From: Hondaea fermentalgiana
Lineage: Eukaryota > Sar > Bigyra > Thraustochytrida > Thraustochytriidae
Assembly (NCBI GenBank): GCA_014084085.1
Contig: NPFB01000053.1
Span: 343,876-407,875, forward strand
Direction: 5' to 3'
DNA: 64,000 nt
In this document: positions 46,501 to 62,822 of the stretch, piece after piece
Numbering within the stretch: position 1 is the first letter of the stretch
How the letters are laid out: each line of letters starts with the position of its first letter
The notes under the pieces: model-generated
The model's database searches: none
What the model saw: only the letters and a program-made list of their open reading frames with translations
Told to the model about the DNA's origin: nothing
Position numbers and translations under genes: made by a program

Positions 46501-49500
46501 AGAAAAAGGTCGCAATTTCTAGCTGCTTCATCTCGCCCTGCGCCGCACTGTTCTCCACAATGCGCGCCAGCAAAAAGTCAACCACCGTTGGCGCGTGGTG
46601 GTCACAGAGGGCGCGCCACAGGGGGAGCGTCAGGTCGAGAGCATTTCGCTGCTCGTCGCGAACGAGCGTTCGTACGCACTCCCATAACTCTTCCAGATTG
46701 AAGTGCGTCTTTTGCGCTCGTCGAATATCCTTTTGCACGCTCTGACGCATTTGCAGTTCCATTGTCCCATGAGCCATGCGCTTCGAGCCGGATGCACTCT
46801 CGGCTGCGACGCCTGCGAGCTCGGTGGCCTCTGGGCCACGCTGCAAGCCGCGTGCGCTGTTGCTACGCGACTTTCGGTTTCGCACAAACTGTCGCGGGGA
46901 GTCAACGCTGACGCTCTCGCCGGAAAGTCCTCCCGCATGGGCGACGGCTCGAGTTGACGCACTCTGTGCGAAGGCCAGACATGCCTGCACAGTGCGTGGG
47001 CCCAGGCCGGCGCTCTCGAGCACCGGGAGGCGCTTGCAGAGAATGCTGAGCACACTGGGTCCGAGTCCAGGGCAACGATCGGCGAGGATGATGGACGCTT
47101 GCGTTGCTGTTTGCTCGATCGTGCGCGAGTCGCTGGCCCACGTTTGCTGGCCGAGCAGACTGGCGCTGTGAAGCTCAAAAGGCGTCGAGCTTCCGTCCAA
47201 GTTGCCGGTCGAAAGGGCTGCCCACGAATCTGACCGCTCCACCACATCGAGCAAGCCAAATGCCCGCGCACGCACTTCGGCCGATGCATGACTTGCAGCC
47301 TGCACGAGCGCAAGCAAAGCAACTAAAGCCATCGCGCTTGGTTCCAGGGGACGGACCATATTGCGCTCAGGCCCTCGAAAGAGCCATACATCCACCGCAT
47401 CTGCAAAGGAGGCAAAAATGGCGTCTGCTCGGCTCTGCGATCTTGGCAGATTCTGCAATTCCACAAACCAGCGCTCGACAAAGGGGCGGAACGTCCCTCC
47501 GCCTGCGGCCTCCACGTCTCCGACGTGCCAGTGAGCCACCAAATAGTTTCGCAAAAGCGGGGAAGCGTCGCTGCAAGCGCGTGGACGATCGCCATCGTAG
47601 TAGAACCAGGACCACAGCATCTCGTCGGGTCGCGGTGCGACAGTGCCGAGAGACGTGGGCCCGAGATGAAGCATCTGCAGGCCAACGTCCGTCGCGAGCT
47701 CGCGAAGAGCCTTAAAGTTGTTCTCCGAGAGGACCTGGCGATCCGCTTGAACAATCGACCGCGCCCCTGATCCCGGAGTCTGGCTTTGGAACGAGGCGTG
47801 GGATCCGCCGTTCTCGTGCCCCTGCGCCCGTGGTGACGCCTTGCGCTGGATTGAAAACAGCTTGACATCGTCAAAACCGACAATCGATTGCATGAGCGTC
47901 CAAACCCGCCTTCGTTCCGCCCGAAGCCAGATTTGGTCCGCGCGTTGCATGAGCATAGGGACCTCCATTTCCCTGCGCAAGATCGAACGCAAGGTGCGCG
48001 CAGCTTGCAAAGCAAGTTTGGTGTATTCCAAGGTTACAGTCCATCCCGAGTTCCGGAGTCTCTCAGCCTGAGCGATGGCAGACATAAACTCAAAAATTTT
48101 CCGCAGCGTAAGCTCCCACCCTGGAAAGCCACTTGTGGTCTTTTGTTGCTGCGGTTGCTGCGCCACGCTTTCCAGCAGAATGCGCAAAGCAGCACAACAA
48201 ATCTGCTCTACAGATGCAACATCTGCCTCTGCAAAAGAGGCAAGCTGCGAGATGGCATGGTCGCTCCCGCGGTGCCGCCTGAACTTGCCAAACTTGGACC
48301 GCTCCTCGCTGGGTTGGCTACGTGATGGTGAACTTGCCGCTGTGAGGCGGGTCTGTCGCCAGGACAGGCAAAGCGCAACAACGCGCGAGACGCAGCGTGG
48401 GTGCATGCTTTTGCCTGCGAGGTCCAGCACGATGCGTCGAAGAGCAGACTGCTCGGGAGACACAGGACGAATGCGCGCCGCCGCGTCCCACAAGTCGTAC
48501 AAGAGTGTTTCCACCTCGCCCTCCATTTCCCCGGGCCACGCTGCCGCTTCAGGTTCGAGAACAAGCGGAGAACGAGGCAAGGACTGGCTCGATCCAGCGC
48601 TGCCGAGCACGAAAGTTACTGCTGATTTGCGCAGGACCGTCTCAAAGTACGAAATTTGCTCCGCTTCCACCTGAAAGCCTGGAAGTCTCGAAAGCCAGTC
48701 AAGGAGAACCTGCGACGCGCTGTGTAAGAGTCCCCGTAGCTCGACAAAGCGAACAAGCTCACGCGCGACTTTGACGAGCTCGTCGGCCCACTGATCTGAA
48801 CGACCGTTGGCCGTTTTGGGATCGGTGTCGCTGGTGACGACGCCAGTTCCCTTGTACCACATAAAGAGCTCATCGCGGCTCACAAGTGGCGCATCGCGTG
48901 CCTTGATGTAGCTGAAGGCGCCCTCAAAAGAGCAGGTGCTACCTTTGATCAGCGTATCGGGCCGCGCGCTAGGAGTTCGTACCAGGGGAGGGCGAGCCAG
49001 AGCTCCTGTGCTGGCGGATGTCACCGTGTGTGCGATATTTGACGCTGGTGCTGGTGGTGGCGCGGGAAGTGTAAAGCTCTCTCTTGTGTCCAAACTCGGT
49101 TTGGTTGGCGACATGGCAAAGGTCTTGGAAAGCGCGTCCAGCGACAAGGGGCTGCCACGCATGCTTCCGTCTGCCGTAGAACTCCGCTCGTGCTGGCGTT
49201 GGCGCGTGGATCCCGTAAGAGGAGGCGGAGGACTTGCCGGAGGGTGCGGTTCGAATCGCTTGACTGGCTGCACATCGTCTGCCGTTCGGCGACGGGAAAT
49301 ATCCGCTTCACTCGACACCGCGCCACAGCAGCAGGAAGTCTTTGCAGCACACTGATAGCCGAAAGGCGGATGCGCTCGTAAAACGCCAGTGATGCGCATA
49401 CACGCAGGACCAAAGTGTGGCCAAAGATGCTGCATTGCATCGATGATTTCCTGAACATGCATCCGCACGCTTGCGCAGGGAAAAACAAGGAGAGCGATAG

Positions 49501-52500
49501 ATAGCGTGAGAAGAGGTTCTCCACCAGCATCGTCCGGGTCCGGAAGCGCAGTCTCCTGCCCATCGGCGCTTTGCGCCTTGGACTGTCGCAAGCGCAGGTG
49601 CGACCAGAGTCGCAGCAAAAGAGCCATCTGTCGCACGTAGGTTAGAATGGCGCGCGTGCACTTGCCGAACCGCGACACGGCGTTTGAGGTCTCGCGAACA
49701 AGTTTGAGGAGCACGCGGATGCGAATCGTATCATTCAATGCGCTGCCAACGATGCGCTGCAAAGCATGAGACACGGCTGTTGCAATGAACCAGTCCGCGT
49801 GGAGCAGCAGTGTCACGTCTGGCAGCGGAGCTTCCGCTGGATTCTGACCCTCTGCGACGGGAGAACAGGACAGAAGAGGAAGTGCGTAGAGAAACTCGCG
49901 GAAAACATCGAGAGCCGGATTAACGCGCTTTTTGAAGAGTGCCGCGCGAGTACGCAGCGTTTGCGCAATCTGTAGCTCAGCGCCGTACTTGTCCGAGAGG
50001 TTCCGCGCGCGGAAAGCGATCTCCCTCCCGCCTTCAAATAGGTCATTGTGCATCTGAAGCTGCTGCAATTCGAGAACAAGGCCGTTCGTCGTAAAGCTAA
50101 AAGCGTCGAGAACATGACCACGTCCAGCATCGGCCCACGCAAACGGGTAGCCACGGGTGTCACCAACAGGGTCTCTTAGGCCCCGCGGCCCCGCGCCGCC
50201 AACGCCTGTGGTCCCATCCCACAACAGAGTGGGCACGAGCGAATGCTCTGCTTGGCCCATGACTCCAACGCCAAGTGCGGCCTGCAAAGAGCCAAACATT
50301 TGAGCGAATTTGCGCACCGTGAGTTTGTGAACATCCTTGAGTGAGGCGCGGTGTGCTTCGAACTGCCCGTGGTGCAGACAAAAGGCGGTCTCCCGGAAAA
50401 CACTCGTACTCGGGCCCAGCACATCCCAGAGTGTCCGGATCCCAACAATGGCGCGGTTCGCTGCGACATGAGGACATTTGTTCAGATCGTCGGGAAGTTG
50501 CGTCACAAACGGCACCGCCTTGTCTAGAAGAATGGTGACATCGTGCGCTGCGAGCTGCAAAAGGATGTGCTTGCAGACAGCCAAGTTTTTGGGAAGCAAT
50601 GGGAATCCGTGCTGATGTGCAGAAGACAGAGACGGAGCGGTGCCAAAGGAGGCGCCCGAGACATGCGAAGCGCCCGAGCCGATGGAACTGAGGCTCAAGT
50701 GACTGCCAGTGGAAACTAGCGAGCCGATCGAGGTGGCCGCAACATCGCGTGAGGAGATCGAAAATCGGGCAGTCCCCAACGAGACACCCGCCAGCGACGG
50801 GGGTTCCGGCGAAGAAGGCGATGTCGAATTAGGAGCAGCGGCAGCAGCAAATGTAGATCCAGATCCAGCAAAAGCGAGTGCGGCTGCCGGAGGTGGCATA
50901 TTGGACGATGAGGTTAGTACTCCGTACGACGAGGAACCACCAAGACTAGCAAAAGCTTTCGACTTTGATCGCTCAAACACCTCGGTGTAAATCGACTCAA
51001 GCGCGCGACGATTCAGCGCAGAAATGCGAGACAAGGGGCCGAGCCCTTCGCGGAAGCGGGTCTCGAGCGGATTGTACATTTCAAAAGCGTCCCAAGCGAC
51101 TGGGGGTCTCGCAAAACGTTGGCTTCGCAGAGACCGCAGAATAATCTCCAAAGAGTGTGTCACCTTGCGCGGCTCCGAAAGGTGCCGAAGCACACGGCGC
51201 GAGAAGAAGGATGCGTAATTAGCCTCGTGAAAGGCAAGAGGTGCGCGAGCAAGAATAGTGAGCATGACACTGAGCGCCGCGGCCTTGAGCTCTTCGGTCT
51301 TGGCGAGCTGCTCGACAGTCTTGAAGAGCTGTTTTGTTACAACGTCGTTGAACGCTGCGGTCCAGGCAGGGTCACGATCTGCAAGGCGCTGAAAATCGAG
51401 GTTCTCCAGCATGGGCTCCAGTGTGAGCAGCATGATAAGACGTGAAGCTTTGTCCTGCTTAGGCTGACCAAGTTGCTCCGCGAGCATGGCCAGGATTTCG
51501 CGTGCCACGCCGGCGTTTGAGAGAGATAGATCAATGAATAGCCAGGCGCAAAATGGAGGGCGCAAATTGAACAAATGTGTGATGAGCGCAGGCTTTTTCC
51601 TCACGGCAAAACCGAGCACGCTCGCCCACATCGTTTGCGTCTGTGCGATAACACGGTGGAGAACATCGCGAGGCAATTGCCCCCTGCCGCTGCCGCCGCC
51701 GCCGCTGCTGCTATTATCAGTCGAGCCATTAGCAGAAGAGGATCTCCTCGTTCTGCTAATTATGTGCTTGAGAGAGAGATCTTCCAGCATGCTCCAATCA
51801 CGCTCGACATCCTCGCTCGCATAGCGCAGCATATGACTCAAGAGATCACCGGCACAGCGAGACCAAAGCAGCTCCACAAGATGAAGGCCTGCGACCTTGA
51901 CGCCCGGAAGTTTCGTTTGAAGCGAGAATGGAGGCTGGGCCCAGTCGAGAACAGTAACAAAGACTTTTTCAAAAAGCGGAGGTGGTAGCGCCAACCAGGC
52001 GCGCAAGCTTCCCACGAAAAAAGCGCACCGGCGAGGATAGTCTTCCCAGAGCGTTTGTAATAAAAAGGAGTCACTCGCGCTCGACCCACCGTCGTTCATG
52101 TTACCGCTGCTATCGTCAACCGCGCTCGCGCGGTCCAGCTGCGCGAGCTTGCGGTCGATGCCCGCGGCAAATTTTGACAAGAAGTCCGCAAAGAAAAACC
52201 ATCCATCCACTTGGGCGTTGGGGCGGCCAGAGTCAGAGGCTGTCACGTCTGAGGACACTGGTGAGGCAGGTTTCTTGTCACCGCTCGGGGTCTCTGCCCT
52301 TTCGCTCTGATTGTTGTTTTTGCTGCCAGTGGCATCGACAGTCCCCTTCTCTTTCTTGTCTTTGTCCGCGTCACTGCTTGGACTGTTTTCATTGCTGCTG
52401 TTGGTGCTACTGCTGCTGGCCCCGTTCCGCTCGGTGATGAGGTGGTTTTCCTTGTGCTCGAGCGTCATGGTGTCAATTCCAAGCTGGCGACGCGGCTTGG

Positions 52501-52564
52501 GCGCAATCTGTGTGGTCCCCACTCCAAGCGGCAGCTTGCCAGCGGCCTCACGAGATCGAGACAT
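43574..52564 (-). CDS. Approximately 3,000-residue predicted alpha-solenoid protein; possibly Furry/Tao3-like
   Basis: 2,996 residues from the first in-frame ATG (52564); the 32 codons above it begin with TTG and are not used. Apart from Ser/Gly/Asp-rich linkers the sequence is helix after helix of Leu/Ala-rich amphipathic type ('VVDFLLARIVENSAAQGEMKQLEIATFFLTSI' region), as in HEAT/armadillo proteins. I cannot name it with confidence. The size, the all-helical build and the pattern of a 'VVDFLL' helix followed by a long helical pair ending in a 'NSLVLGVLYRV' helix recall Furry/Tao3/Mor2 scaffolds of the NDR-kinase pathway, whose human member is about 3,000 residues, but no motif settles it. 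Disordered parts are the N-terminus (Ser/Asn/Asp/Lys), residues about 1120-1220, and an acidic C-terminal insert before a final helical stretch. No membrane segment, catalytic motif or frameshift is seen. Confidence 0.85.
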   Translation of the reverse strand: MSRSREAAGKLPLGVGTTQIAPKPRRQLGIDTMTLEHKENHLITERNGASSSSTNSSNENSPSSDADKDKKEKGTVDATGSKNNNQSERAETPSGDKKPASPVSSDVTASDSGRPNAQVDGWFFFADFLSKFAAGIDRKLAQLDRASAVDDSSGNMNDGGSSASDSFLLQTLWEDYPRRCAFFVGSLRAWLALPPPLFEKVFVTVLDWAQPPFSLQTKLPGVKVAGLHLVELLWSRCAGDLLSHMLRYASEDVERDWSMLEDLSLKHIISRTRRSSSANGSTDNSSSGGGGSGRGQLPRDVLHRVIAQTQTMWASVLGFAVRKKPALITHLFNLRPPFCAWLFIDLSLSNAGVAREILAMLAEQLGQPKQDKASRLIMLLTLEPMLENLDFQRLADRDPAWTAAFNDVVTKQLFKTVEQLAKTEELKAAALSVMLTILARAPLAFHEANYASFFSRRVLRHLSEPRKVTHSLEIILRSLRSQRFARPPVAWDAFEMYNPLETRFREGLGPLSRISALNRRALESIYTEVFERSKSKAFASLGGSSSYGVLTSSSNMPPPAAALAFAGSGSTFAAAAAPNSTSPSSPEPPSLAGVSLGTARFSISSRDVAATSIGSLVSTGSHLSLSSIGSGASHVSGASFGTAPSLSSAHQHGFPLLPKNLAVCKHILLQLAAHDVTILLDKAVPFVTQLPDDLNKCPHVAANRAIVGIRTLWDVLGPSTSVFRETAFCLHHGQFEAHRASLKDVHKLTVRKFAQMFGSLQAALGVGVMGQAEHSLVPTLLWDGTTGVGGAGPRGLRDPVGDTRGYPFAWADAGRGHVLDAFSFTTNGLVLELQQLQMHNDLFEGGREIAFRARNLSDKYGAELQIAQTLRTRAALFKKRVNPALDVFREFLYALPLLSCSPVAEGQNPAEAPLPDVTLLLHADWFIATAVSHALQRIVGSALNDTIRIRVLLKLVRETSNAVSRFGKCTRAILTYVRQMALLLRLWSHLRLRQSKAQSADGQETALPDPDDAGGEPLLTLSIALLVFPCASVRMHVQEIIDAMQHLWPHFGPACMRITGVLRAHPPFGYQCAAKTSCCCGAVSSEADISRRRTADDVQPVKRFEPHPPASPPPPLTGSTRQRQHERSSTADGSMRGSPLSLDALSKTFAMSPTKPSLDTRESFTLPAPPPAPASNIAHTVTSASTGALARPPLVRTPSARPDTLIKGSTCSFEGAFSYIKARDAPLVSRDELFMWYKGTGVVTSDTDPKTANGRSDQWADELVKVARELVRFVELRGLLHSASQVLLDWLSRLPGFQVEAEQISYFETVLRKSAVTFVLGSAGSSQSLPRSPLVLEPEAAAWPGEMEGEVETLLYDLWDAAARIRPVSPEQSALRRIVLDLAGKSMHPRCVSRVVALCLSWRQTRLTAASSPSRSQPSEERSKFGKFRRHRGSDHAISQLASFAEADVASVEQICCAALRILLESVAQQPQQQKTTSGFPGWELTLRKIFEFMSAIAQAERLRNSGWTVTLEYTKLALQAARTLRSILRREMEVPMLMQRADQIWLRAERRRVWTLMQSIVGFDDVKLFSIQRKASPRAQGHENGGSHASFQSQTPGSGARSIVQADRQVLSENNFKALRELATDVGLQMLHLGPTSLGTVAPRPDEMLWSWFYYDGDRPRACSDASPLLRNYLVAHWHVGDVEAAGGGTFRPFVERWFVELQNLPRSQSRADAIFASFADAVDVWLFRGPERNMVRPLEPSAMALVALLALVQAASHASAEVRARAFGLLDVVERSDSWAALSTGNLDGSSTPFELHSASLLGQQTWASDSRTIEQTATQASIILADRCPGLGPSVLSILCKRLPVLESAGLGPRTVQACLAFAQSASTRAVAHAGGLSGESVSVDSPRQFVRNRKSRSNSARGLQRGPEATELAGVAAESASGSKRMAHGTMELQMRQSVQKDIRRAQKTHFNLEELWECVRTLVRDEQRNALDLTLPLWRALCDHHAPTVVDFLLARIVENSAAQGEMKQLEIATFFLTSIAPEIFAASPSIIVNSLVLGVLYRVRVESIARGLYASSAASPTSRRPRVLQSWIKLALTQDADPCGYNSHKEGLKEEMRSLLRTQASALKALSLCAAGARKDCAMAFPQMITYGLCSTLGLHTSSPRHRYGAGGECIAMLLRSLSHERLVRQASQRTSSDPSLAMVLPSQLLGPSPARLVELARLDPSSYTDQVLEEVVSSMAELLTLCSPDGDLLHLWCQCLLLNGLGLYQQQMRWKPELMHRCLAVYAKLRAKIEGPLYLVRGFAEVDESVAWRIEILALLRIAHQAMHNEAFALVEIALLCLGRLDLRHMSASLCKFFLNFYASVAHSKRAEDLCLDLLLSALPEELDAEDLDVDALRCKTQDRLTAQLLLCDARAEDELSEEYEGTEDGDDPSALLSLCIRLFHCGVLRVDLVCSWFPVLATGALAPGAFVDDAVGHLDLPVKMREALHEFIFRPTDEECLQNACLAAMDFFGAVEFALALARCCTRQIQVLEDENASGLPVDAERYLLAVYRVISCVVTASSPCLQFFIPIVRKATLLESEQGAGVMSEAVEDLLKAAHKASGGSSLPGQGASPRSPLRAFGVQTAWGGDSTTGPSVSAEIRCGEALALMSDLIRVDACDLEDTLSPFMEGSRSPVTTPRWRRRVDAPPQLNVVRSRDPDASEDELKLPSSGDGSEPWTGGSSPSLGRGLGGGGGGGDFEPTTGTTVKTGISEDLEPRSRGIGATSTALDEFEIGGVASFETSKRGLEAGNGGARRSSSARHLSRMLGVASDSEDNDHEDDNDDDSAFGKDGCESGSDGEGNDSHHDEGTIAWGGTRRHGRAAGTIRLVRYRSMEDGTTAEQQSAVMRRSFLEELLANESNHKQIETFIVQQPAIDTSWLEFALAVIDFKRNPMTETAESVFNQFLVLDGLDTIDVPDAVRERVEQAIEAKEGVDKGLFDEGLKLALDYLDKNFLGRYLRSSQYCEA

Positions 52565-54433
52565 GCGATACCAGGGTTTACAGTGTTGCGCAAAGCCGAG
52601 GCGAGCCGCGGCGAGGCTGAGGCGAAGGCAAAGAGACAAACGTTGAAAAGCAGGAGACAAATCTCAAAAACCAAAGCTCAAAAACCAGGAGCCAAGGTTG
52701 AGACAGAGCTAGTTCTCCACAACAGAATTCGAGTAGACTGTCCCACGAAGACGCGTATCTACGCGTGCGCTCCTCTTTTTAATCGCTCGACTTTGACTTC
52801 CCGTCCAGCCGAAAGCACGCAGTCCTCGCTCACGAGGTCGAGCAGGTCGTTTCCACCCTCTTTTCGTTCTCGTGTTGCTCGCGCCAGACCACGCGGCGCG
52901 CGAGAGGAGAGGGCCCGCGTCGGGCCGCACCCGAGAGGCTCCGGCGAGAGAGAGGAGGAGCCTCGCCTCGCAGGCCACCGGCCTGGCCGCAAGCAGGAGG
53001 CCGAGCTCGGGCTGGGCTCGGTCGCTCGGGCTCGATGGCCCCGCCCGCCCAGGCCGCGAGCCAAGGTGACCGGCGGAACGTGTCTTGCTGCTGCTGCTGC
53101 GATCTANNNNNNNNNNNNNNNNNNNNNNNNNNNNNNNNNNNNNNNNNNNNNNNNNNNNNNNNNNNNNNNNNNNNNNNNNNNNNNNNNNNNNNNNNNNNNN
53201 NNNNNNGGGGGAGGACGGCGGGCCGCGCGAGGGGGCGGCGCGGCGCGCGCGAGGAGAGCCGGGCCCTCCGGCGAGAGGCAGACAGCCAGCCAGCCAGCCC
53301 GCGCAGCCGCGCGAGGCGCGCTCGATTCTGCCTGCGCGGGCGCCTTCGTCGAACTGGAGACGCGCCTCGGAAACAGATCAGAGCAGCGAGACTGACTGTT
53401 CGCGCGGAGAGAGGCGCGCCCGGAATTCCGGGAAGCGTCGTTCCCCGCGGTTCGATCACGCGCTCCAAGATGCTTGTAACGGCTATGCGCCTTGCGGCCT
53501 TGCGCCTAGCCGGCACCGGCGTTGTCGTGTTCTTCACTGCAAGCTAGCTCGTCATCCACCCTGTGTCCTATTCTGGCTTTTGAAGGGGCGGGGAGGGAGA
53601 GGAGAGGTGAAGGGTGAAGGGGAACGACGGAGAGTTTGCCGAGGATGGCTGGCACGATATCGATCATTCCTTTCGCGAGGGAGAGGTGTGGCTGCCTGAA
53701 AAGTTGCAAAGCGTAGCACAATTTGAGCAGCAGCCCAAGCTGCGGCTCGAGCTGCTGCTGCCGAGGCGGCGAGTGCCTCTGATTCGAGGAGGAAGAATCG
53801 AGGGGGGGGGTGCTAAAATCACTTCGGCGTTAGGTAAGAAACCGCAAAAGTACAGGTGCAAAACTCCCAAAAAAAACGTGACCGTTCGGCGGCCTTGCAC
53901 GCCACCGGCGAGTCGAGGTAAGTAAAATGGCCGATCGGTTTGCAGCTGATGATAATGATGATGGCTATTGTACATGGCAGGAACGTGGGATTGGGCAGCA
54001 ACACTGATAGGCACTGCAAGAGCAAGAACACCCGACAGAAGTTGTTCGAGGGCCAGCGAAAACAATAGCACGGTCGCGGCTGCATCGCGCAAAGCCCAAG
54101 CGCGGCAGCGCAGCAGCGCGGCAGCGTGGCAGTGCGGGAGGGAGGTGAGGGCGCGCGCGCGCGTGAGGTCAAAATCGAACTTAGAGGTGCTTGTCAGAGG
54201 TTCTTCTCCGCTTGTTGAAAAGCCACGCAGACGCTCCTGCAAGCAAAGCAAATTAGAACCAGCGCGAGCAACAAAGCGTACGCACGTACGTGCTTGTGGT
54301 AAAGTAGTAGGCTTTGAGAGAAAGGCAAGCGGGCGGGTGCAATCTGCACGCCACGAAAGCGCGCAAGTTCTGACAAAGCCGCAGCACCACGCGCAACGCC
54401 AAGGCTAAGAGGCTAAGAGCGAGGCCGAAGCAA
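52565..54433. promoter_or_regulatory. Divergent region between the solenoid and channel genes, with gap
   Basis: 1.87 kb. From the left: leader of the solenoid gene with repeated CAAAAACCA; a GTTCTCCA octamer (complement of TGGAGAAC) near 52711; a GC-rich Arg-codon-like zone; a CTG/CTGC run just before the gap (about 53086-53100); the gap at 53107-53206; GCCAGCCAGCCAGCC near 53286; a G run near 53802; and GCGCGCGCGCG near 54152. ORFs of 195-317 codons on either strand lack domains or cross the gap. No supported gene. Confidence 0.5.
53107..53206. other. Assembly gap (100 N)
   Basis: Exactly 100 N, preceded by a CTG-repeat stretch and followed by GC-rich sequence. Confidence 0.99.
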
Positions 54434-57400
54434 ATGCCGGGGCGAGAGACCAAACCAGTCCGAGCGCTTCTGATTATTGATTGTCAAAATGACTTTATTC
54501 CGAGCGAAGATGGCTCTCTTGCTGTGCCCGATGCCGAGGCGGTTCTGCCAGTCATCAACAAGCTCCGAAGCAAGGAGTTCGACTTTGTATACCTGTGTTT
54601 AGACTGGCACCCGTACAATCATTGCTCGTTTCGTACCAATAATCCTGGCGCCGATCTCTTTGAGGTGGTCCACTTACCGACCACGGGAAATGCTCAAATC
54701 ATGTGGCCAGACCACTGCGTGCAGGGGACACACGGCGCCGAACTCCACAAAGACCTCAAGATCGAGGTTTCTGACATATACACATATGCAGGATGCAATC
54801 CGCAGCGCGACAGCTATTCTGTCTTCAAGGATAATGGTTCGACCGTCCTGACGGAAATGCGAGACCTTCTCGAAGAAAGCGCGGTGACAGAAATCTATGC
54901 CGTCGGTCTTGCGACAGATTACTGTGTACAGTACACGCTTCTCGATGCCAAGAGTCTCTTGCAAGGCGTCGAAGTATTCTTCATTCAGGATGGCTGCCGC
55001 GGTATCAGCGACGCGGGCGTCAAGGGTGCTGTCGACGCTTTCAAGAGCGAAAAAGTCCACATCATTTCCTCTGGCGGACCCGAGCTCGGTCGCATTGCAG
55101 ATCGCAAAATACGCATTGACGGTGGCCTGGAGCTTCTTAAGAGAAATGACCGCGTCACAATGTTCAGCGAGGTCGACAGGATCTACGAGTCCGTTATCTT
55201 TCGTACGGCGCAGGGTAAGGCGTGGGAAGAGGACTTGGCGAATCTGGTTCGCAGCGTCATTGTCAACCAGCTCTGTTCCTGGAGTGGAAAGAATGCGCTG
55301 CATGCCTGCTGTGAAATGGGAGATATTCGCACGCTTGAGCATCTAATTCGTGTGGCCGGCAAGGGACTCAACCTCGGCATGCGCACACGCAAAGACGAGA
55401 ATGCGCTCATGCTTGCCATTCAAAGCAAGGACCCCACGCATCGCGCGGACATTGTTCGCCTCTTGCTCGACACTGCCGACGAGGGCCAGCGCCGCGAGTT
55501 GCTCTTTGGCCAAAGCCTGCAGTTTCGTCTTTCTGCTCTCATGTTTGCATGCCGCGACGGTCTTCCAGACGTTGTAAGCATCCTTCTCGAGGCAGAATGT
55601 TCGTCTTCCCTGAAGCTTCGCAGTGCGTTCGGCAAGACGGCGCTCATGTTTGCGTGCATTTCGAACACACAAGACCACGCTGCCATTGTGGAAATGCTCT
55701 TGCGCTCGCAAGCTAAGCTCGAGGACCGCTTTGCGATGCTTCAAGAGACGGACAAGGAACGATGGAACAGTTTGCACTTTAGCGCCAAATCAGGATCATT
55801 CGCCCGGGTCGACTGGAGCAGGGCGCTCGATGGCTACGAAAACATGTCTCGCCTTCCCATCAATGCCAAGACGCTCTCGGGTATCACCTTTTTACACCTA
55901 GCAGCTTTTAACGGGCGATCGGAGGTCATTCGAGCACTCATTGACAACTGTGCCCCAAATCGCAAGCGACGCATGATGGAGGCCATTTTAAAGAAGGGGC
56001 TCCGCCACCGCGTCAAGGTCAACGTTCCTATCAAGGGTTTGGGTCATACAGAACTCGATTTAGCAATCCAACGTCGTCACCTCGAATGTGCAAGGCTGCT
56101 GCTGAGACTGGGTTGCTACGCAGGGACGTCGTCGCAGGAGCAGATGCAGGAGCTCCTGCATCGTCTTGTGCTCATGGGCGACGTGGAGGCCTGCGAGAGC
56201 ATCCTGAACTTTGCAGACGAGAATCGTGTCACAATCGATGACGCCCTCGTAGAGACAACGCAGCGCATTGAGCACCCGGAAACCTGCACGGTCTCATTTG
56301 CGAATCGGACGGACCCTGTCGCGCAGTTCTTGTACAAGTGCGAAATTTGTGGCGCCAGCGTTTGCCTTGTGTGCAAGGACCGCTGTCATGGGCCCGCAGC
56401 GTGTCGCCAGGCTTACCTCAAGCTCGACTTTGAGCACTTTCCTGACAAGGGCTGGGAGCCCTGCGGCACGGTGGTGTCGCAATGTGGCTGCGATCGCGAC
56501 ACCTGCTGCGCCACCGCGGCTACGGATGTGCGCGAGATTGAGGGCTACCGATTTATCCCCCACCCGGTACGAACGAGTGCTGTTCACCTGAATGCAGAAC
56601 TACTACGACTCTCGCACTCAATCGCAAGGAACATGCACAACGTCTGGGCGCAAAGCCTTAGCGAGCTGGGATGGAGGTATGGTCGGGATAAAGACCCCGA
56701 CGAAAAAGTGCATCCGCATTTGCTTCCATTTGACTCCCTCTCGATTGAAGGTGCCAAATACAATATGGACATGTCCGTCGAGACACTCAAGGTGATCCTT
56801 TCGCTAGGATACGAAATCCACCGACGCGTCGAAGCCCCGCGCTTTGGGCGTAATGACACCACCACAACGGATCCGTCCACGACGCCAAACGCTGCTTTGA
56901 GCTCGAGCTCCAGCAGGGAGCCTGTGCAGCAGGACCCCGTGATGCTCACCAAGGCATTGAGCATGATGGCGAGCGATTCAACAATGAAGCAGCGCAAGAT
57001 AAAGCTCGGTGTGACTTCTGCAGATCTGCTCGCAGGAACAGGTAACAAGTACTCTGAGTTTGCGTGGGATATTTCACGCCCAGACTGCGTTCCGCTCAAC
57101 ACGAGCGGGGTAGAGCTGCCCAAAGAACTCGCAACGCTTACAGAACGGATTGCATCCAACTCGCACGAGGTATGGGCGAGCGAGAAGATTCGTCAGGGAT
57201 GGCGTTACGCACCGAGCCGTAATATTCGCAAAGACCTCAAGCTCAACTCGTCGCTTGTCCCTTATTACGTTCTCACTCGTGAAGAGAAAGAACAGCTTCT
57301 TCAAGGAGCGCGCGAGACCATGAAAGTAATTCTAATGACGGGCTGGGTTGTTCATCCGAAAACCCGCGCGAGCGATAGCAGCGGGTCCAAAGGTCCAAAA

Positions 57401-60400
57401 ACCAAATTTGCTGCAGCTTCTAGAGCCACGAATGAGAACGATAGCGACGAAGGCTCGAGCGACGACGACGACGATAATGGAGACGAGGATGGCATGTCCG
57501 GAGATACGCATGGATCAGGAAGCGAGAGACGCAATGCAGGAAACCAACTCATGATTCCCTTGCGCAGGAGAGACACTGCGCAGCCAACCCGCAGCACGCT
57601 TGCATTTCGCCAGCTGAAGCTGATTCGCCGCAAGCTCTTCAATCAGTACCTCTTTGCAGCAGTCCGTCGCGGCCAGATCCACTCTGTCAACATTTTGCTT
57701 TCGAAACGATCGAGTATGCACGTGGGCGCCAACCTTAACGCCATCGACGAATATGGGCACACGCCTTTGTATATTGCCATTAAGCGTGGCCAACTCGCCA
57801 CGGCCAAACGGCTTCTAGCGCTTGGTGCCAATCTCGAGCTGCGTGATATCAATGGTCTTACGCCGCTGGCCCTATGCGCGTACCTGGGCAATCTCAAACT
57901 GTGCATGGAGCTCGTGCAGAATCAAGCACGCATTCTGGTGTGTGACGCCATGGGCTTCACACCGCTGCATCTTGCTGCGAACCAAGGCCACGTCGAGGTG
58001 TGCAAGTATCTTACGGAGCGCCTGCAGCAGGAGCATCAGAGTAACGAGATTGTCGACCTGAACGCAGACATGGTCGATTACTCGGCAGCGGACGCCTTAG
58101 CGGAAGGCAACGTCATGGAACGGGACTCTGATGACGAGGGCAGTTCCGCGATGGGACGCTCGCGTCGAAGCTTTCGGACGATGGCAACAGGGTCGACAAA
58201 CGCGGGCCAAGCCCAGGCCCGATGGAAGCTCTTTCGAATCGTGTTTCGTTCCCGTGCCATGGGCAGTGAAAGGTCCAAGGTGGGCCGAATTATCCCTGCA
58301 GAGGGTCTCACGGCATCCAAGAACTGGCAAACGGACCAAGTTGACCAGGTCTCCCCACTGCGTCGAATGCCGACTCGCCAGAGCACGCGGCTCTCCGGTC
58401 AATCGGAAGCCCTCTTCAATCAAAGCACGCCGCGCGAAGGAATCGCTTCAGTGCAGACAGGTTTGATGCCAAGCCGCACTACGCAGAAACTCTTGCGGTC
58501 AGGAAGCGACCTGGGCGAGGCAGCGGCACAGTCACGACTTTCGGGGTACCCGCCATTGTCGCTTGCAGTGCAATCAGACAATATTGAAATTGTGGAGCTT
58601 CTCATCAAGTACGGAGCAAACCCGATGCTCGCCGACGGCCCGGCAGCTATGTTCAGTCCATACGTGCGTGCCCTGCTTCGGCATATTGAGATGTGCGCCA
58701 AGGTTGAATATCTGCAGGATCGGATCTCGCGACGTGCGCTTTACGACTTGCAAACAGCTGGAACCCTCCGGGCAGATGAAAAACCGCCAAACAAGCTTGG
58801 ACAAGACGGTCGCAAGGTTGGGCCCGGGGGAGCTTCCATGCGACAATCGGGTAGCTCGCTCATTCCGATGGACACCTATCGCGGCGATCCAGTCTCGGGC
58901 GATCAAAATAGCTTTGACTACGTCGACCCCAACGCGCTGAATCTGACGAATCGTACGCAATCACAGCGGACGCCCGGTAGCATGACCCCAAAGTCGTTGC
59001 CACCCATTGGGATTCCAGGTCGCAAACACTTTGGCATGGTCAAACGATTGGACACGCGAATCGGAAACCTTTTCGGCTTTGCTGGCGGCGAAGGCGGCGC
59101 TCAAGACATGCAAGAGCGCGTTGCCCCTGATATCGGTCCGGATGGCCCCTCGGGCGTTACGGGAAACATTAACACACAGCAAGTGAGTTCCACGCGCGAG
59201 CTCGATCAGTTGTTAGAAAAGGCACAGGATGAGCGTGCAAAGGCAGCTCGCATGGTGGAGGTGATGAATCGATCATCCAAGGTGAGCGCATGGCGAAGGC
59301 GGACGGCCATCAAGATGTGTGTCAAAGAGACAAGTCTTTTGCTCATCCTTATCATCTCATTCGGTTGCCTTGTGCAGCTCTCGCCAGACTACGGGATCGA
59401 ATCCGAGGGGGAATGGGCGGACCAGCTACGTGGACATCTTGCGGAAAGCACTGCGAGTATTGACGGCCCAGCGGACTTTTTGGATTGGGTCCAACATAAG
59501 TTTGTCGGCGAGGAGCTTTTGCGGGCTGCGAATCGCACTGCATGGCGTGGGAAGAACTTTGTTTTTGGCGGGATTGCTCTCGATATGTATGAGCACAACG
59601 CACTTGAAGAGCTTGATAATGCCCAGCTGACCACAATCGCAAGTCTTGACACCTCGACAGAGTATCAGACGTCGCTGCTGCCGCAAGCTGACAAGGAGGA
59701 GCTCTTGGATATCCTGACGAGCGAGACAGGGAACTGGACCCAGAACGAAGTTCATATCCTCTCTCTCACCTTCAACCTGTACAACCCATTTTACGAAGTG
59801 TACGGCATCGCTGAAGTGCGGCAAACCTCCTCGTTTGTGGGGCTGAACAGCTTGGATGTGGATGTGAAACCCTTTCGACTTCACTATGGCAGGTTTCCGC
59901 CGTCTCGATCATTTCAGCTGGCTGTGTTGATTATGGTCATTTGCTTCACCATCACCAAGCTGCGAAGCTGGGTTCGTGCTCGGCACCGTTCGCGAGGGCG
60001 GCGAACAGAGGAATGGGTGATTGAGTTTTTGCTTTTGGGCATTCTCATTTTTGACATTTACGTCTACGAGGTCACAAAAGATGTGACGCCAGACTACACA
60101 TCGAGCGAGCGACTGGATCTGTCGCAAGCCTACCGCTTGCTTGAGGTTGAGCGGAGATTCTTTGCCATCTACTTTTTGCTCAGTGTGCTGCCGCTGCTCA
60201 AGGCGACGCAGACGATTCCGTCGATAGGGCCTGTGGTCGTGGCGCTGCTGAGCACCATGACGAATACGGCCGTTCTCATCTATTTGCTCGTTATTTCGAC
60301 GGCGTGCTTTTTGCTCACGCTTACTTTTCACGTTGGCTTTGGCATTTCTGTCTCGCAGTTCGCCACCATGATTACAACCTTTGAGAGCCTTTTTCTCACG

Positions 60401-60880
60401 CCATTTGTGGAGACTTGGGACGGCATCATAACAAGTTCGCACTCTTCATATCTCGGTGCTGTGCTCGCGGTATTTTACATTCTCTTTGCGACAATTTCGC
60501 TCAATCTGCTCATAGCTATTGTGACAGACGTGTATCCGAGCGCTCGCGCTGCGTCGGATCGTGAGTGGGAGGAGATAATCACGGGCGGAATCGAAGACAA
60601 CTTGCGGGATTTGCTGCACCGGCAGAACATTTCGCAAAAAGATCTCCGCATCGAGACGTGGAATGAGGCCAAGCTACTCACGGGTCGGGATGGACGAAAG
60701 CATTGGGTCGCTTCGGATGCTGTGAACGACGACGAAGGCTGCGAGGCCGGAGCGCCAGCCATGGATGGGAGCTCTTCGCATCAAAGTACTAACGACAAGC
60801 TCGCAGCGCTTTCTGAACAGATACGGCAGCTCACTTCTATTGTTGAAAGTTTGCGCGCAGCTCCAGGTGCAACCGACTAA
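54434..60880 (+). CDS. Nicotinamidase-ankyrin-RyR-TRP/polycystin channel fusion ('chanzyme')
   Basis: 2,148 residues in one uninterrupted frame. Residues 8-213 are a nicotinamidase/isochorismatase-fold domain (nicotinamide to nicotinate plus ammonia in NAD salvage) with the catalytic triad D16, K132 and C164 ('ATDYCVQYT') and metal ligands D57, H59 and H94 ('DWHPYNH', 'WPDHCVQGT'). Residues about 285-580 are degenerate ankyrin repeats, and 616-692 a Cys-rich UBR-box-like zinc module. Two RyR domains follow (about 717-798 and 893-976, 'VWA...GWRYG' type), then an acidic linker and a second ankyrin block (about 1070-1200, plus one repeat at 1372-1402). The membrane part has S1 at about 1632-1650, an extracytosolic S1-S2 loop of about 175 residues (polycystin/TRPML-like, sequons at 1700 and 1767), S2 1826-1846, S3 1861-1880, S4 1905-1922, S5 1932-1967, a pore region 1970-2000, and S6 2005-2032 ('AVFYILFATISLNLLIAIVTDVY'). 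A short coiled coil ends the protein. The enzyme would lie on the cytosolic side. Confidence 0.93.
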   Translation: MPGRETKPVRALLIIDCQNDFIPSEDGSLAVPDAEAVLPVINKLRSKEFDFVYLCLDWHPYNHCSFRTNNPGADLFEVVHLPTTGNAQIMWPDHCVQGTHGAELHKDLKIEVSDIYTYAGCNPQRDSYSVFKDNGSTVLTEMRDLLEESAVTEIYAVGLATDYCVQYTLLDAKSLLQGVEVFFIQDGCRGISDAGVKGAVDAFKSEKVHIISSGGPELGRIADRKIRIDGGLELLKRNDRVTMFSEVDRIYESVIFRTAQGKAWEEDLANLVRSVIVNQLCSWSGKNALHACCEMGDIRTLEHLIRVAGKGLNLGMRTRKDENALMLAIQSKDPTHRADIVRLLLDTADEGQRRELLFGQSLQFRLSALMFACRDGLPDVVSILLEAECSSSLKLRSAFGKTALMFACISNTQDHAAIVEMLLRSQAKLEDRFAMLQETDKERWNSLHFSAKSGSFARVDWSRALDGYENMSRLPINAKTLSGITFLHLAAFNGRSEVIRALIDNCAPNRKRRMMEAILKKGLRHRVKVNVPIKGLGHTELDLAIQRRHLECARLLLRLGCYAGTSSQEQMQELLHRLVLMGDVEACESILNFADENRVTIDDALVETTQRIEHPETCTVSFANRTDPVAQFLYKCEICGASVCLVCKDRCHGPAACRQAYLKLDFEHFPDKGWEPCGTVVSQCGCDRDTCCATAATDVREIEGYRFIPHPVRTSAVHLNAELLRLSHSIARNMHNVWAQSLSELGWRYGRDKDPDEKVHPHLLPFDSLSIEGAKYNMDMSVETLKVILSLGYEIHRRVEAPRFGRNDTTTTDPSTTPNAALSSSSSREPVQQDPVMLTKALSMMASDSTMKQRKIKLGVTSADLLAGTGNKYSEFAWDISRPDCVPLNTSGVELPKELATLTERIASNSHEVWASEKIRQGWRYAPSRNIRKDLKLNSSLVPYYVLTREEKEQLLQGARETMKVILMTGWVVHPKTRASDSSGSKGPKTKFAAASRATNENDSDEGSSDDDDDNGDEDGMSGDTHGSGSERRNAGNQLMIPLRRRDTAQPTRSTLAFRQLKLIRRKLFNQYLFAAVRRGQIHSVNILLSKRSSMHVGANLNAIDEYGHTPLYIAIKRGQLATAKRLLALGANLELRDINGLTPLALCAYLGNLKLCMELVQNQARILVCDAMGFTPLHLAANQGHVEVCKYLTERLQQEHQSNEIVDLNADMVDYSAADALAEGNVMERDSDDEGSSAMGRSRRSFRTMATGSTNAGQAQARWKLFRIVFRSRAMGSERSKVGRIIPAEGLTASKNWQTDQVDQVSPLRRMPTRQSTRLSGQSEALFNQSTPREGIASVQTGLMPSRTTQKLLRSGSDLGEAAAQSRLSGYPPLSLAVQSDNIEIVELLIKYGANPMLADGPAAMFSPYVRALLRHIEMCAKVEYLQDRISRRALYDLQTAGTLRADEKPPNKLGQDGRKVGPGGASMRQSGSSLIPMDTYRGDPVSGDQNSFDYVDPNALNLTNRTQSQRTPGSMTPKSLPPIGIPGRKHFGMVKRLDTRIGNLFGFAGGEGGAQDMQERVAPDIGPDGPSGVTGNINTQQVSSTRELDQLLEKAQDERAKAARMVEVMNRSSKVSAWRRRTAIKMCVKETSLLLILIISFGCLVQLSPDYGIESEGEWADQLRGHLAESTASIDGPADFLDWVQHKFVGEELLRAANRTAWRGKNFVFGGIALDMYEHNALEELDNAQLTTIASLDTSTEYQTSLLPQADKEELLDILTSETGNWTQNEVHILSLTFNLYNPFYEVYGIAEVRQTSSFVGLNSLDVDVKPFRLHYGRFPPSRSFQLAVLIMVICFTITKLRSWVRARHRSRGRRTEEWVIEFLLLGILIFDIYVYEVTKDVTPDYTSSERLDLSQAYRLLEVERRFFAIYFLLSVLPLLKATQTIPSIGPVVVALLSTMTNTAVLIYLLVISTACFLLTLTFHVGFGISVSQFATMITTFESLFLTPFVETWDGIITSSHSSYLGAVLAVFYILFATISLNLLIAIVTDVYPSARAASDREWEEIITGGIEDNLRDLLHRQNISQKDLRIETWNEAKLLTGRDGRKHWVASDAVNDDEGCEAGAPAMDGSSSHQSTNDKLAALSEQIRQLTSIVESLRAAPGATD

Positions 60881-60986: not shown

Positions 60987-62822
60987 TCAGGTGGACTCCT
61001 CGTCGGATGAGTCGAAGACTGACTTTGATGGGCGCAAGCCGCCTTGGTGCGAGCTGTTGCGCGAACCTGAAGGAGGACGAAGGTCATCTGTCCTTGCATT
61101 CTCATCTTCACTTTGCTCGGACTCGCTATCAAAGAGACTTGCAAAGAGTTTGCGCTGATACATCTTTTGCGCCGCTTTGGCGTCGATGGGCTCTTCTGCT
61201 TGGACATTTTCGACAATGCCTTTTGCTTGGGTGGGGGGGGACTCTGTGGGTTCTTGCGTAGACGTATCGGGCTTTGGAAAACCAAACGTGCTTGTGGCCT
61301 CACTCGTAGCCAAAAGCAGCGGCACATTTCCAGAGGCAGTCTGCTGCCGCGTTGGTATTCGTGGAGGCAACTGACTTGTACGTGTGGGACGCGGAGGTGG
61401 TTTGCCAAAAGCCGTTTGGGCGTTGTTCTGCGAATGATCCGATAGCGGCGACAAGTGGGATAGGTTCTGCGTGGGTCGCACGGGTAGAGGTGTGCGTTCG
61501 GAAAGAGTCACTGCAGCTGGCTGACAGGGCGTAGTAGCCTGAGACCTTTTATTCTGGTCAAATGGTTTGGCTTTGCCATGCACACCCTCTTGATTCGGAG
61601 TATCAACTTCTTTTTCAGGATGAGCGAGAGTTCCACGCTCAACCCGCTCAGACATGTTTGTCGCGAGGAAGCTTGGTCGCACGGGCCGCCTGGCTCTCTC
61701 CAAAGTAGCCGGCGCGTTGGACGCACTTGGCGTCTTTTCATTCTCTGTTTGATCTGGCACTGTGTCCATCGAGGACCGCGCAGGATTGGAGGTCTGCTGG
61801 ACGGATGCTTCGACTGCAATAAGGTCCGCCAGCTTGCTTGAGGGCTGCGGTGCATTTGAAGCATCGTAGCTTCGTTGCGCATGTTTCGCGAGGGAGTCAG
61901 CCAAGGACTGTCGAAAGTCTGTGTGATGGCCGGAAGGTGATTCTTGCGCTCGGACCTCGACATCGCCAACGCTCAATTTGTGAGGAGAAGGTTCATTTTG
62001 AAGGTTTCCAGTGTTAAAATCCGTAGACTCGCTTGATGGAAAAATCCCCAGAGCTTCTGCATTGGAGATAAGTCCATCAAGGTCCGCTTCGGAGTCGTTT
62101 GGCGCGGATGAAGGAGATGATGTTGGTGGTGATGGTGGCCAGGGTTTAAATTTTCTTTGTTGGAACAATGCTGGGTCAATGGGCGATGCAACGGCCGCAT
62201 TGTGAAGCATTTGGGATATGGCGTCATGTGTGAGGTTTCCTTTGGGCTTGGGTGTCTCCTGGTTGTGCGCTTGTTTATGTTGATGGTCAAGATGTGGATT
62301 TGAATTGCCTCGGAGAACACCATCATCATCATCATCCTGAACGCTGTTCTGTATAAATTGAGAGTGTGAGAGAAGGGCAAAGCGGTGACGAACAGCATCG
62401 AGATCGGTTGCTGTGGTGTATGCGTTTTCTTCCAAGCTCCTCACAGCCTCTTGCAGACCCTGTGCGCGAGCGCAAAGCGCGTCTGCGAAGGCGTCAAGAT
62501 AAGCTCTAAGCGGGTCTTGCTGTTGCTGGTGTTGGCCTTTGCGCATCGTTGGCGGGTTTTTGTGTGCGTGATGTTGAGGTACTGCTCCGTCGGAGAGGCC
62601 GAGAGCAGTTGGGCTTGCGCTGTCTATGGTAGCGTTAACTCCGTTGCCCTTGGCGGCATCCTGAGCGTGAATGACTTGCGTCTCCTGAGGCGACGAAGAC
62701 GACGACGGGGTGGGTCTGGGCTCTTGAGGGCGCGCAGGGCTATCTGTCTGGCCGCTGGGGCGAGCGAGGCTGCGCAAGAGGTCCTGGCGCCCAGAAAGCG
62801 GGGCAGCCACGTCGAGGTCCAT
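60987..62822 (-). CDS. Short FAM21/WASHC2-like protein, mostly disordered
   Basis: 611 residues. Only residues about 104-165 look folded: a helical stretch ending 'FALLSHSQFIQNSVQDDDDD'. This closely follows the head-domain ending of WASH-complex subunit FAM21, where a long helix ends in 'L(A/S)xTQFIENRVYDEE'. The rest is Pro/Ser/Thr/Gln-rich. The C-terminus holds acidic Leu-Phe/Phe-Asp motifs ('SLFDSESEQSEDE', 'SVFDSSDEEST') like the LFa motifs with which FAM21 binds retromer. FAM21 recruits the actin-nucleating WASH complex to endosomes. The assignment rests on one helix and two motifs, so an unrelated disordered protein remains possible. It is convergent with the channel gene, only 106 bp between stops. 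Confidence 0.6.
   Translation of the reverse strand: MDLDVAAPLSGRQDLLRSLARPSGQTDSPARPQEPRPTPSSSSSPQETQVIHAQDAAKGNGVNATIDSASPTALGLSDGAVPQHHAHKNPPTMRKGQHQQQQDPLRAYLDAFADALCARAQGLQEAVRSLEENAYTTATDLDAVRHRFALLSHSQFIQNSVQDDDDDGVLRGNSNPHLDHQHKQAHNQETPKPKGNLTHDAISQMLHNAAVASPIDPALFQQRKFKPWPPSPPTSSPSSAPNDSEADLDGLISNAEALGIFPSSESTDFNTGNLQNEPSPHKLSVGDVEVRAQESPSGHHTDFRQSLADSLAKHAQRSYDASNAPQPSSKLADLIAVEASVQQTSNPARSSMDTVPDQTENEKTPSASNAPATLERARRPVRPSFLATNMSERVERGTLAHPEKEVDTPNQEGVHGKAKPFDQNKRSQATTPCQPAAVTLSERTPLPVRPTQNLSHLSPLSDHSQNNAQTAFGKPPPRPTRTSQLPPRIPTRQQTASGNVPLLLATSEATSTFGFPKPDTSTQEPTESPPTQAKGIVENVQAEEPIDAKAAQKMYQRKLFASLFDSESEQSEDENARTDDLRPPSGSRNSSHQGGLRPSKSVFDSSDEEST

Follow-up and report, generated by a model that had tools for sequence, protein, structure and literature searches.

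The 64,000-nt stretch of Hondaea fermentalgiana DNA that we analyzed (the window) contains an open reading frame (ORF) at positions 54434–60880 whose product, P0001, joins a domain derived from nicotinamidase to a polycystin-like ion channel. The frame runs from an ATG at 54434 to a TAA at 60880 over 2,148 codons with no in-frame stop and no N, which bears out the single gapless ORF of the original prediction, made from the sequence alone. It maps once in the genome at 100%, and the chance of an open run this long, calculated from the window's own stop-triplet frequency, is ~10^-22. Other proteins obtained from protein searches are referred to as P0002–P0013. The features of the gene are as follows.

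54434–60880, + strand: whole ORF, 2,148 amino acids (aa), in the order nicotinamidase-like, ankyrin, Cys-rich, RyR, RyR, ankyrin, polycystin-like channel, C-terminal helix
54455–55072, + strand: nicotinamidase-derived domain, residues 8–213 (PF00857; 2wt9, E = 3e-45; Foldseek to 2wt9 and 9u8m; regional identity)
54479–54481, + strand: codon of D16, catalytic Asp, kept (alignment)
54602–54610, + strand: codons 57–59, with metal ligands D57 and H59, kept (alignment)
54713–54715, + strand: codon of H94, metal ligand, kept (alignment)
54788–54790, + strand: codon of A119, at the catalytic-lysine position (Lys in 80/80 controls, Ala here)
54827–54829, + strand: codon of K132, a variable column taken earlier for the catalytic lysine (Y47/F17/R16 in 80 controls)
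54923–54925, + strand: codon of C164, nucleophile, kept here; Thr in P0005, Ala in P0007–P0009 (alignment)
55304–56233, + strand: first ankyrin block, about residues 291–600 (Pfam Ank families, alignment; limits approximate)
56234–56548, + strand: Cys-rich segment between the ankyrin and RyR parts, about residues 601–705 (invariant Cys in alignments)
56552–56821, + strand: RyR domain 1, residues 707–796 (PF02026)
57050–57388, + strand: RyR domain 2, about residues 873–985 (PF02026, two stretches; position from alignment, limits approximate)
57599–58063, + strand: second ankyrin block, about residues 1056–1210 (Pfam Ank families, alignment; limits approximate)
58529–58693, + strand: third ankyrin stretch, about residues 1366–1420 (Pfam Ank families, alignment; limits approximate)
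59324–60538, + strand: predicted six-segment channel S1–S6, about residues 1631–2035 (model helices; Foldseek matches to polycystins; sub-cut-off Ion_trans)
59393–59905, + strand: large mixed helix/strand loop between S1 and S2, at the place of the polycystin (TOP) domain (strands in the model)
60788–60859, + strand: predicted C-terminal helix, residues 2119–2142 (model)

The Pfam family Isochorismatase (PF00857) matched residues 11–211 of P0001 with 64.7 bits (cut-off 27), and the closest solved structure to the N-terminal part of the protein was the Acinetobacter nicotinamidase 2wt9. For a model of residues 1–240 with a predicted local distance difference test (pLDDT) score of 70.5 (<50 for residues 61–100), Foldseek ranked 2wt9 and the Drosophila nicotinamidase 9u8m first. 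From these Pfam, sequence and Foldseek matches, we concluded that the N-terminal domain has the isochorismatase-type, or nicotinamidase, fold. The NCBIfam nicotinamidase model PRK11609 scored 160 bits, below the cut-off of 174, and the score for an equivalog was not reached. Domain searches also recovered the ankyrin and RyR modules that had been predicted, in the form of several Pfam Ank families and two stretches of PF02026 (160.6 bits). We considered and rejected assigning the Cys-rich segment to a named zinc finger, the sole Pfam candidate being IBR at 18.2 bits (cut-off 24.3). The helix modeled at residues 2119–2142 is possibly a coiled coil.

In a low-confidence model of residues 1583–2148 (pLDDT 64), six long helices lay where expected; a large insert with strands separated the first from the second, and shorter helices lay between the fifth and sixth. 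Polycystin-2 chains stood at the top of the Foldseek results (E = 3e-10), and among the 50 matches listed of 338 at E ≤ 10, 47 were chains of polycystin entries and three were TRPML1. Because the TM-scores to polycystins were only ~0.25–0.5, in alignments of ~460–520 columns over the 566-residue model, we take the structure as evidence for the kind of fold and not for its details. At the level of sequence, Ion_trans matched P0001 at residues 1861–2038 with 23.1 bits, just under its cut-off of 25, and was above cut-off in P0002, P0007, P0009, P0011, and P0013. PKD_channel passed in P0002 (28.7 bits, cut-off 22.4), P0011, and P0013, fell under cut-off in P0006, P0007, and P0008, and gave no Pfam match in P0001, P0003, P0004, P0005, or P0009. 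Polycystin_dom was found in P0011 only, among the 12 proteins scanned with Pfam, and P0011 matched PKD2L1 at 1.7e-26. A sequence search with the channel region of P0001 alone returned weak matches, the best to bacterial sodium channels (E = 0.0012) and the next to TRPC; it matched no TRPM chain, and Pfam placed no Nudix family in P0001. The matches listed from a profile search of solved structures with full-length rows were ankyrin and RyR chains, and this search was not used for the channel. Taken with the Foldseek matches to polycystins and TRPML1 and with PKD_channel in the three relatives, the model points to a polycystin-like fold of six segments with a pore between S5 and S6, as originally proposed for a channel of the transient receptor potential (TRP)/polycystin type. 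Structure prediction, which the original prediction had suggested as a check, thus led from the N-terminal model to nicotinamidases and from the channel model to polycystins.

Three protein searches yielded 13 distinct proteins, P0001 included. Overall identity to P0001 was 70% for P0002, 57% for P0003, 45% for P0004, 38% for P0005, and 29% for P0006; P0007, P0008, and P0009 have the same layout as P0001 at 38, 35, and 35%. The order nicotinamidase-like domain, ankyrin, channel is common to 11 proteins (P0001–P0009, P0011, and P0013), that is, to P0001 and ten relatives. P0011 starts with the nicotinamidase-like domain, P0013 begins within it, and P0006 has ~1,040 additional residues N-terminal to the shared part. 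The search for the same order elsewhere succeeded for these three parts in all ten relatives and for RyR in all but two: it occurs as two stretches each in P0001–P0005 and P0007–P0009 and as one in P0013, but Pfam scans did not find it in P0006 or P0011. A profile alignment of P0011 with the family of P0001 had a probability of 100 and E = 2e-58 over 1,616 columns, 6% of them identical, in a printed part that stops before the channel. P0010 (3,482 aa), which has a weak channel match and no PF00857 among its precomputed domains, was excluded from the fusion count. One pattern scan of viral contigs gave 11 pattern matches, with no relative among them.

The genome itself (36.0 Mb, 238 contigs) contains one further full-length paralogue, a single frame of 2,115 aa on another contig (C2, locus L089:1778-8125). 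It is identical at 2,000 of 2,001 aligned residues to P0009, whose record is also from H. fermentalgiana; P0009 lacks a 114-residue stretch and has 16 extra residues at its start. These relatives bear directly on whether two adjacent genes were read as one or the region was mis-assembled. The same N-terminal domain, ankyrin and channel order recurs in relatives at 29–70% and 35–38% overall identity; the paralogue is one frame with the same order; and the sequence of the ORF has no gap. Two of the ten relatives are transcript-derived by their source names (P0004, MMETSP; P0011, EukProt), so that in both a single RNA should carry the fusion. We therefore set aside a split gene or assembly artefact as extremely improbable and regard the single fused gene of the original prediction as upheld. 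Regional codon usage, compared with the paralogue, ranged from 0.47 to 0.85 and was lowest in the 77-codon junction, and it decides nothing.

The active site of the N-terminal domain was read from an alignment of 12 channel proteins (the 11 N-terminal fusions and P0012, which is described below) with 80 stand-alone homologues as controls. The controls, all prokaryotic, are the best 80 of at least 443 confirmed and form 58, 28, and 14 clusters at 90, 70, and 60% identity. They were found with the motifs LIIDxQxD and DWHPxxH, so that the D16 and D57/H59 columns were selected and are not independent, whereas the Lys and Cys columns were unselected. P0013 was counted only in the Lys, K132, and Cys columns, since it starts inside the domain, and P0008 is gapped at D16. 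The original prediction had described complete catalytic (D16, K132, C164) and metal-binding (D57, H59, H94) residues. By this alignment D16, C164 and the Asp/His/His metal site are present where it placed them, but K132 was rejected as the catalytic lysine: it stands 13 residues C-terminal to the lysine position, and its column is Tyr in 47, Phe in 17, and Arg in 16 of the 80 controls. The lysine column itself (the K of "KG" before DSYSxF) holds Lys in 80/80 controls and in 0/11 N-terminal fusions. P0001 has Ala119 there, as can also be seen in pairwise alignments to 2wt9 and 9u8m, and the Asp-Lys-Cys triad of an active nicotinamidase is thus incomplete.

Eight fusions have Ala in the lysine column (P0001–P0006, P0011, and P0013), P0007 has Ser, and P0008 and P0009 have Thr; in the K132 column, the 11 fusions have Lys seven times, Arg twice, and Asn and Met once each. 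D16 is retained in six of the nine fusion rows with a letter there, and all three metal ligands in seven of the ten rows that cover them. D16, C164, and the metal ligands are all retained in P0001–P0004 and P0006. P0001–P0004 keep 35 of 39 columns that are near-invariant in the controls, and among their triad and metal columns only K119A differs. The corresponding counts are 22/39 in P0007, 17/35 in P0008, and 19/36 in P0009; these three have lost Lys and Cys together with one or two metal ligands, and the paralogue on C2, represented by the P0009 row, is without the triad and two of the three metal ligands. According to PMC3581539, the K104A mutant of an Oceanobacillus nicotinamidase, which was insoluble and had to be refolded, retained 1.45% of wild-type activity. 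Activity of the pneumococcal enzyme is stated to need Lys103, Asp9, and Cys136, the lysine being thought to stabilize the thiolate (PMC6271260). Because K104A lost activity and the pneumococcal enzyme depends on Lys103, turnover in the Lys-less domain should, by analogy, be strongly reduced, which does not imply that it is zero.

We compared identity to P0001 across 16 regions. Residues 8–213 were 92% identical in P0002, 83% in P0003, 68% in P0004, and 59% in P0005, and S2–S6 were 79, 57, 46, and 32% identical. The N-terminal domain had the highest value of all 16 regions in three of these proteins (P0002, P0004, and P0005); in P0003, an ankyrin block (85%) was the only region above it. Such a pattern, together with the loss of pocket residues in P0007–P0009, is what would be expected for a selected binding module in the subgroup of P0001 and a retired one in P0007–P0009.

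Two of the proteins extend the picture. P0006 (3,051 aa, source jgi) has, at about residues 650–1006 and N-terminal to its nicotinamidase-like domain, a region resembling NUDT9 and the NUDT9-H domain of TRPM2 (1q33, E = 2.1e-16; Nematostella TRPM2, 9.3e-15), as well as an Sa_NUDIX match at residues 190–397 (26.8 bits, cut-off 25). A short piece of it aligns weakly (1.4 bits alone) with human TRPM2 over the Nudix box of the latter's inactive domain; going by this weak alignment and the known motif, we take P0006 to lack the Nudix glutamates. P0012 (1,749 aa, sources lgn and ena) has the reverse order: the channel, which comes first, is TRPV-like, matching TRPV3 best and Inactive and TRPV6 less well, and the C-terminal nicotinamidase matches the Drosophila enzyme at 1.8e-58 and has Asp, Lys, Cys, and the metal ligands all present. 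Its channel and ankyrin Pfam scores were all under cut-off, and from its sequence it is possibly a true chanzyme. We built a tree of 32 rows, comprising ten of the 11 N-terminal fusions (P0013 was left out), P0012, and 21 of the 80 controls, with no eukaryotic stand-alone enzyme. A branch (98/87) divided the N-terminal fusions from the stand-alone enzymes, and P0012 lay on the side of the latter. Since the tree separates them, nicotinamidase was probably joined to TRP-superfamily channels twice.

We also searched the genome for families related to nicotinamide adenine dinucleotide (NAD) metabolism, reading frames exon by exon in an assembly whose completeness is uncertain. The isochorismatase family occurs in two places in the whole genome, this ORF and a frame on C47 that, read by eye, is another kind of hydrolase without the DWHP motif. 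One gene of the NAPRTase family is present and by eye reads as NAPRT, and QPRT is present. NAMPT_N was not found in the genome (two of 14 control genomes gave matches). The CD38-type cyclase (PF02267) had no match in the genome or in any of the 14 control genomes and is uninformative, and the sirtuin family had six matches, two of them in one frame.

Contigs C47, C91, and C96: genes near NAD metabolism, namely isochorismatase-family, apparent NAPRT, and QPRT

Elsewhere in the window, both on the reverse strand, lie a 611-aa open frame at 60987–62822, convergent with the channel gene, in which no Pfam family reaches cut-off, and a 3,028-aa open frame at 43574–52660 with a C-terminal RGS match of 22.4 bits (cut-off 23.9).

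What the N-terminal domain does has to be judged from what was observed: P0001 is encoded in one frame, shares its domain order with relatives, and combines a nicotinamidase fold with a polycystin-like one; lysine is lost in 11/11 fusions, and the pocket is otherwise kept in the subgroup of P0001. Because the lysine is missing throughout, and because the nucleophile, Asp or metal ligands are gone from some of the proteins as well, the domain is better read as a former enzyme that has been retained for binding or sensing. With modest confidence, we thus favor a polycystin-like channel whose Lys-less, nicotinamidase-derived domain has been kept as a ligand-binding sensor module, either non-hydrolyzing or slowed. 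The original prediction was of an undescribed chanzyme with an intact triad. An enzyme-type domain and a channel do share one chain, but the missing lysine weakens the chanzyme claim, and the sensor claim gains. That the domain with K119A still turns over nicotinamide, perhaps very slowly, with local ligand removal serving as a timer, seems to us unlikely, although it would fit the retention of D16, C164, and the metal ligands in P0001–P0004 and P0006, and a slow enzyme on a channel has a precedent in the choanoflagellate TRPM2 chanzyme, for which slow NUDT9-H hydrolysis is described in PMC11479946. K132 is Lys in P0001–P0005, which would suit such an enzyme, but the same column is Asn in P0006, Met in P0011, and Arg in P0013. 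Further losses speak against turnover as well, since C164 has become Thr in P0005, where the domain is still 59% identical, and D16 has become Cys in P0011.

Several points nevertheless weigh against a retained sensor, some of them by favoring an enzyme. A genome search with an intact nicotinamidase matched only this ORF and found no second nicotinamidase, and with an apparent NAPRT and no NAMPT_N found, a working nicotinamidase would be useful. If these searches are right, the organism either salvages nicotinamide with this domain or does not salvage it at all; QPRT, on the other hand, means that NAD can be made without such salvage. R10, R45, K47, and R224 are constant in P0001–P0006 and rare in controls, and one of them may stand in for the lost lysine. 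C164 is retained in 7/11 fusions, although a pure binding site would not require it, and the activity figure for K104A is confounded by the insolubility of that mutant (PMC3581539). In P0007, P0008, and P0009, the domain is 38, 31, and 33% identical to that of P0001, below several other modules, and, judging from their sequences, it cannot act there as a nicotinamide site in the way proposed. That it stays in these proteins, the paralogue included, after such losses would also be expected if it were a structural module only, a folded part for assembly or protein binding with the pocket as a relic. We think this improbable for P0001, in whose subgroup the pocket columns are almost fully kept and the domain ranks first for conservation in three of four comparisons and second in the fourth.

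In the sensor mechanism that we favor, nicotinamide or its product nicotinate would bind the metal-containing pocket of the N-terminal domain, the ankyrin and RyR stack would relay this signal to the pore, and NAD breakdown would thereby change ion flow. We infer nicotinamide binding, gating by that binding and its direction, and absent or very slow turnover; the N-terminal stack would be cytosolic, given the layout of known TRP channels. A wider proposal is tentative, and on balance we incline against it: protist polycystin-type channels would read NAD breakdown through retired enzymes, sensing nicotinamide through the nicotinamidase and, in P0006, also ADP-ribose through the NUDT9-like region, independently of TRPM2 and of P0012. 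If this wider proposal is true, both NAD cleavage products would converge on one pore in P0006. If the sensor reading is true, P0001 would show that ion channels sense nicotinamide outside animals too, through a sensor recognizable in its sequence, and a third enzyme type would have been grafted onto the TRP superfamily, the earlier ones being the Nudix and kinase domains of TRPM channels. The nearly intact, partly lost and wrecked active sites of the fusions offer a natural series for testing the change from enzyme to sensor.

The proteins form a real, conserved channel family that is undescribed in the open-access literature searched; no description of a fusion between a nicotinamidase or isochorismatase and a channel was found there, judged largely by titles and with subscription papers outside the coverage. 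Compared with the nicotinamidases PncA, Pnc1, and Naam (2wt9, 2h0r, 9u8m), P0001 shares the fold, metal ligands, Asp, Cys, and pocket residues, but it has Ala for the catalytic Lys and a fused channel. With polycystin-2 and PKD2L1 (TRPP), the nearest solved fold by Foldseek among the matches listed, it shares S1–S6 and, in the model, a large mixed S1–S2 loop, but identity is ~13% and P0001 has a long N-terminal region of nicotinamidase-like, ankyrin, and RyR parts that PKD2 is not known to have. P0012 resembles it in joining a nicotinamidase to a TRP-superfamily channel, and differs in carrying the domain at the C-terminal end of a TRPV-like channel and in having a complete triad, Lys included.

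The nicotinamide link and the comparison with TRPM2 drawn in the original prediction are apt, in view of the nicotinamidase fold and the NUDT9-H precedent. Nicotinamide acts on an animal TRP-superfamily channel, the Caenorhabditis elegans TRPV OSM-9/OCR-4, as an agonist with a K1/2 of 63 uM, nicotinate being far weaker (PMC5064019), and it is the predicted ligand in P0001. In such nicotinamide-activated channels (OSM-9/OCR-4; Nan-Iav), however, the nicotinamidase is a separate protein and the channel is TRPV, not polycystin. The animal link has a practical side in the proposal that nicotinamidase is the target of an insecticide metabolite, a claim disputed in PMC11766345. Human TRPM2 is a close parallel in kind, as a TRP-superfamily channel with an enzyme-derived domain: its NUDT9-H domain is without hydrolysis yet binds ADP-ribose, an NAD-derived metabolite (PMC5671594 and PMC11479946). 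P0001 differs from it in having a nicotinamidase in place of a Nudix domain, at the N- and not the C-terminal end, and on a polycystin-like and not a TRPM channel, where its role in sensing is predicted.

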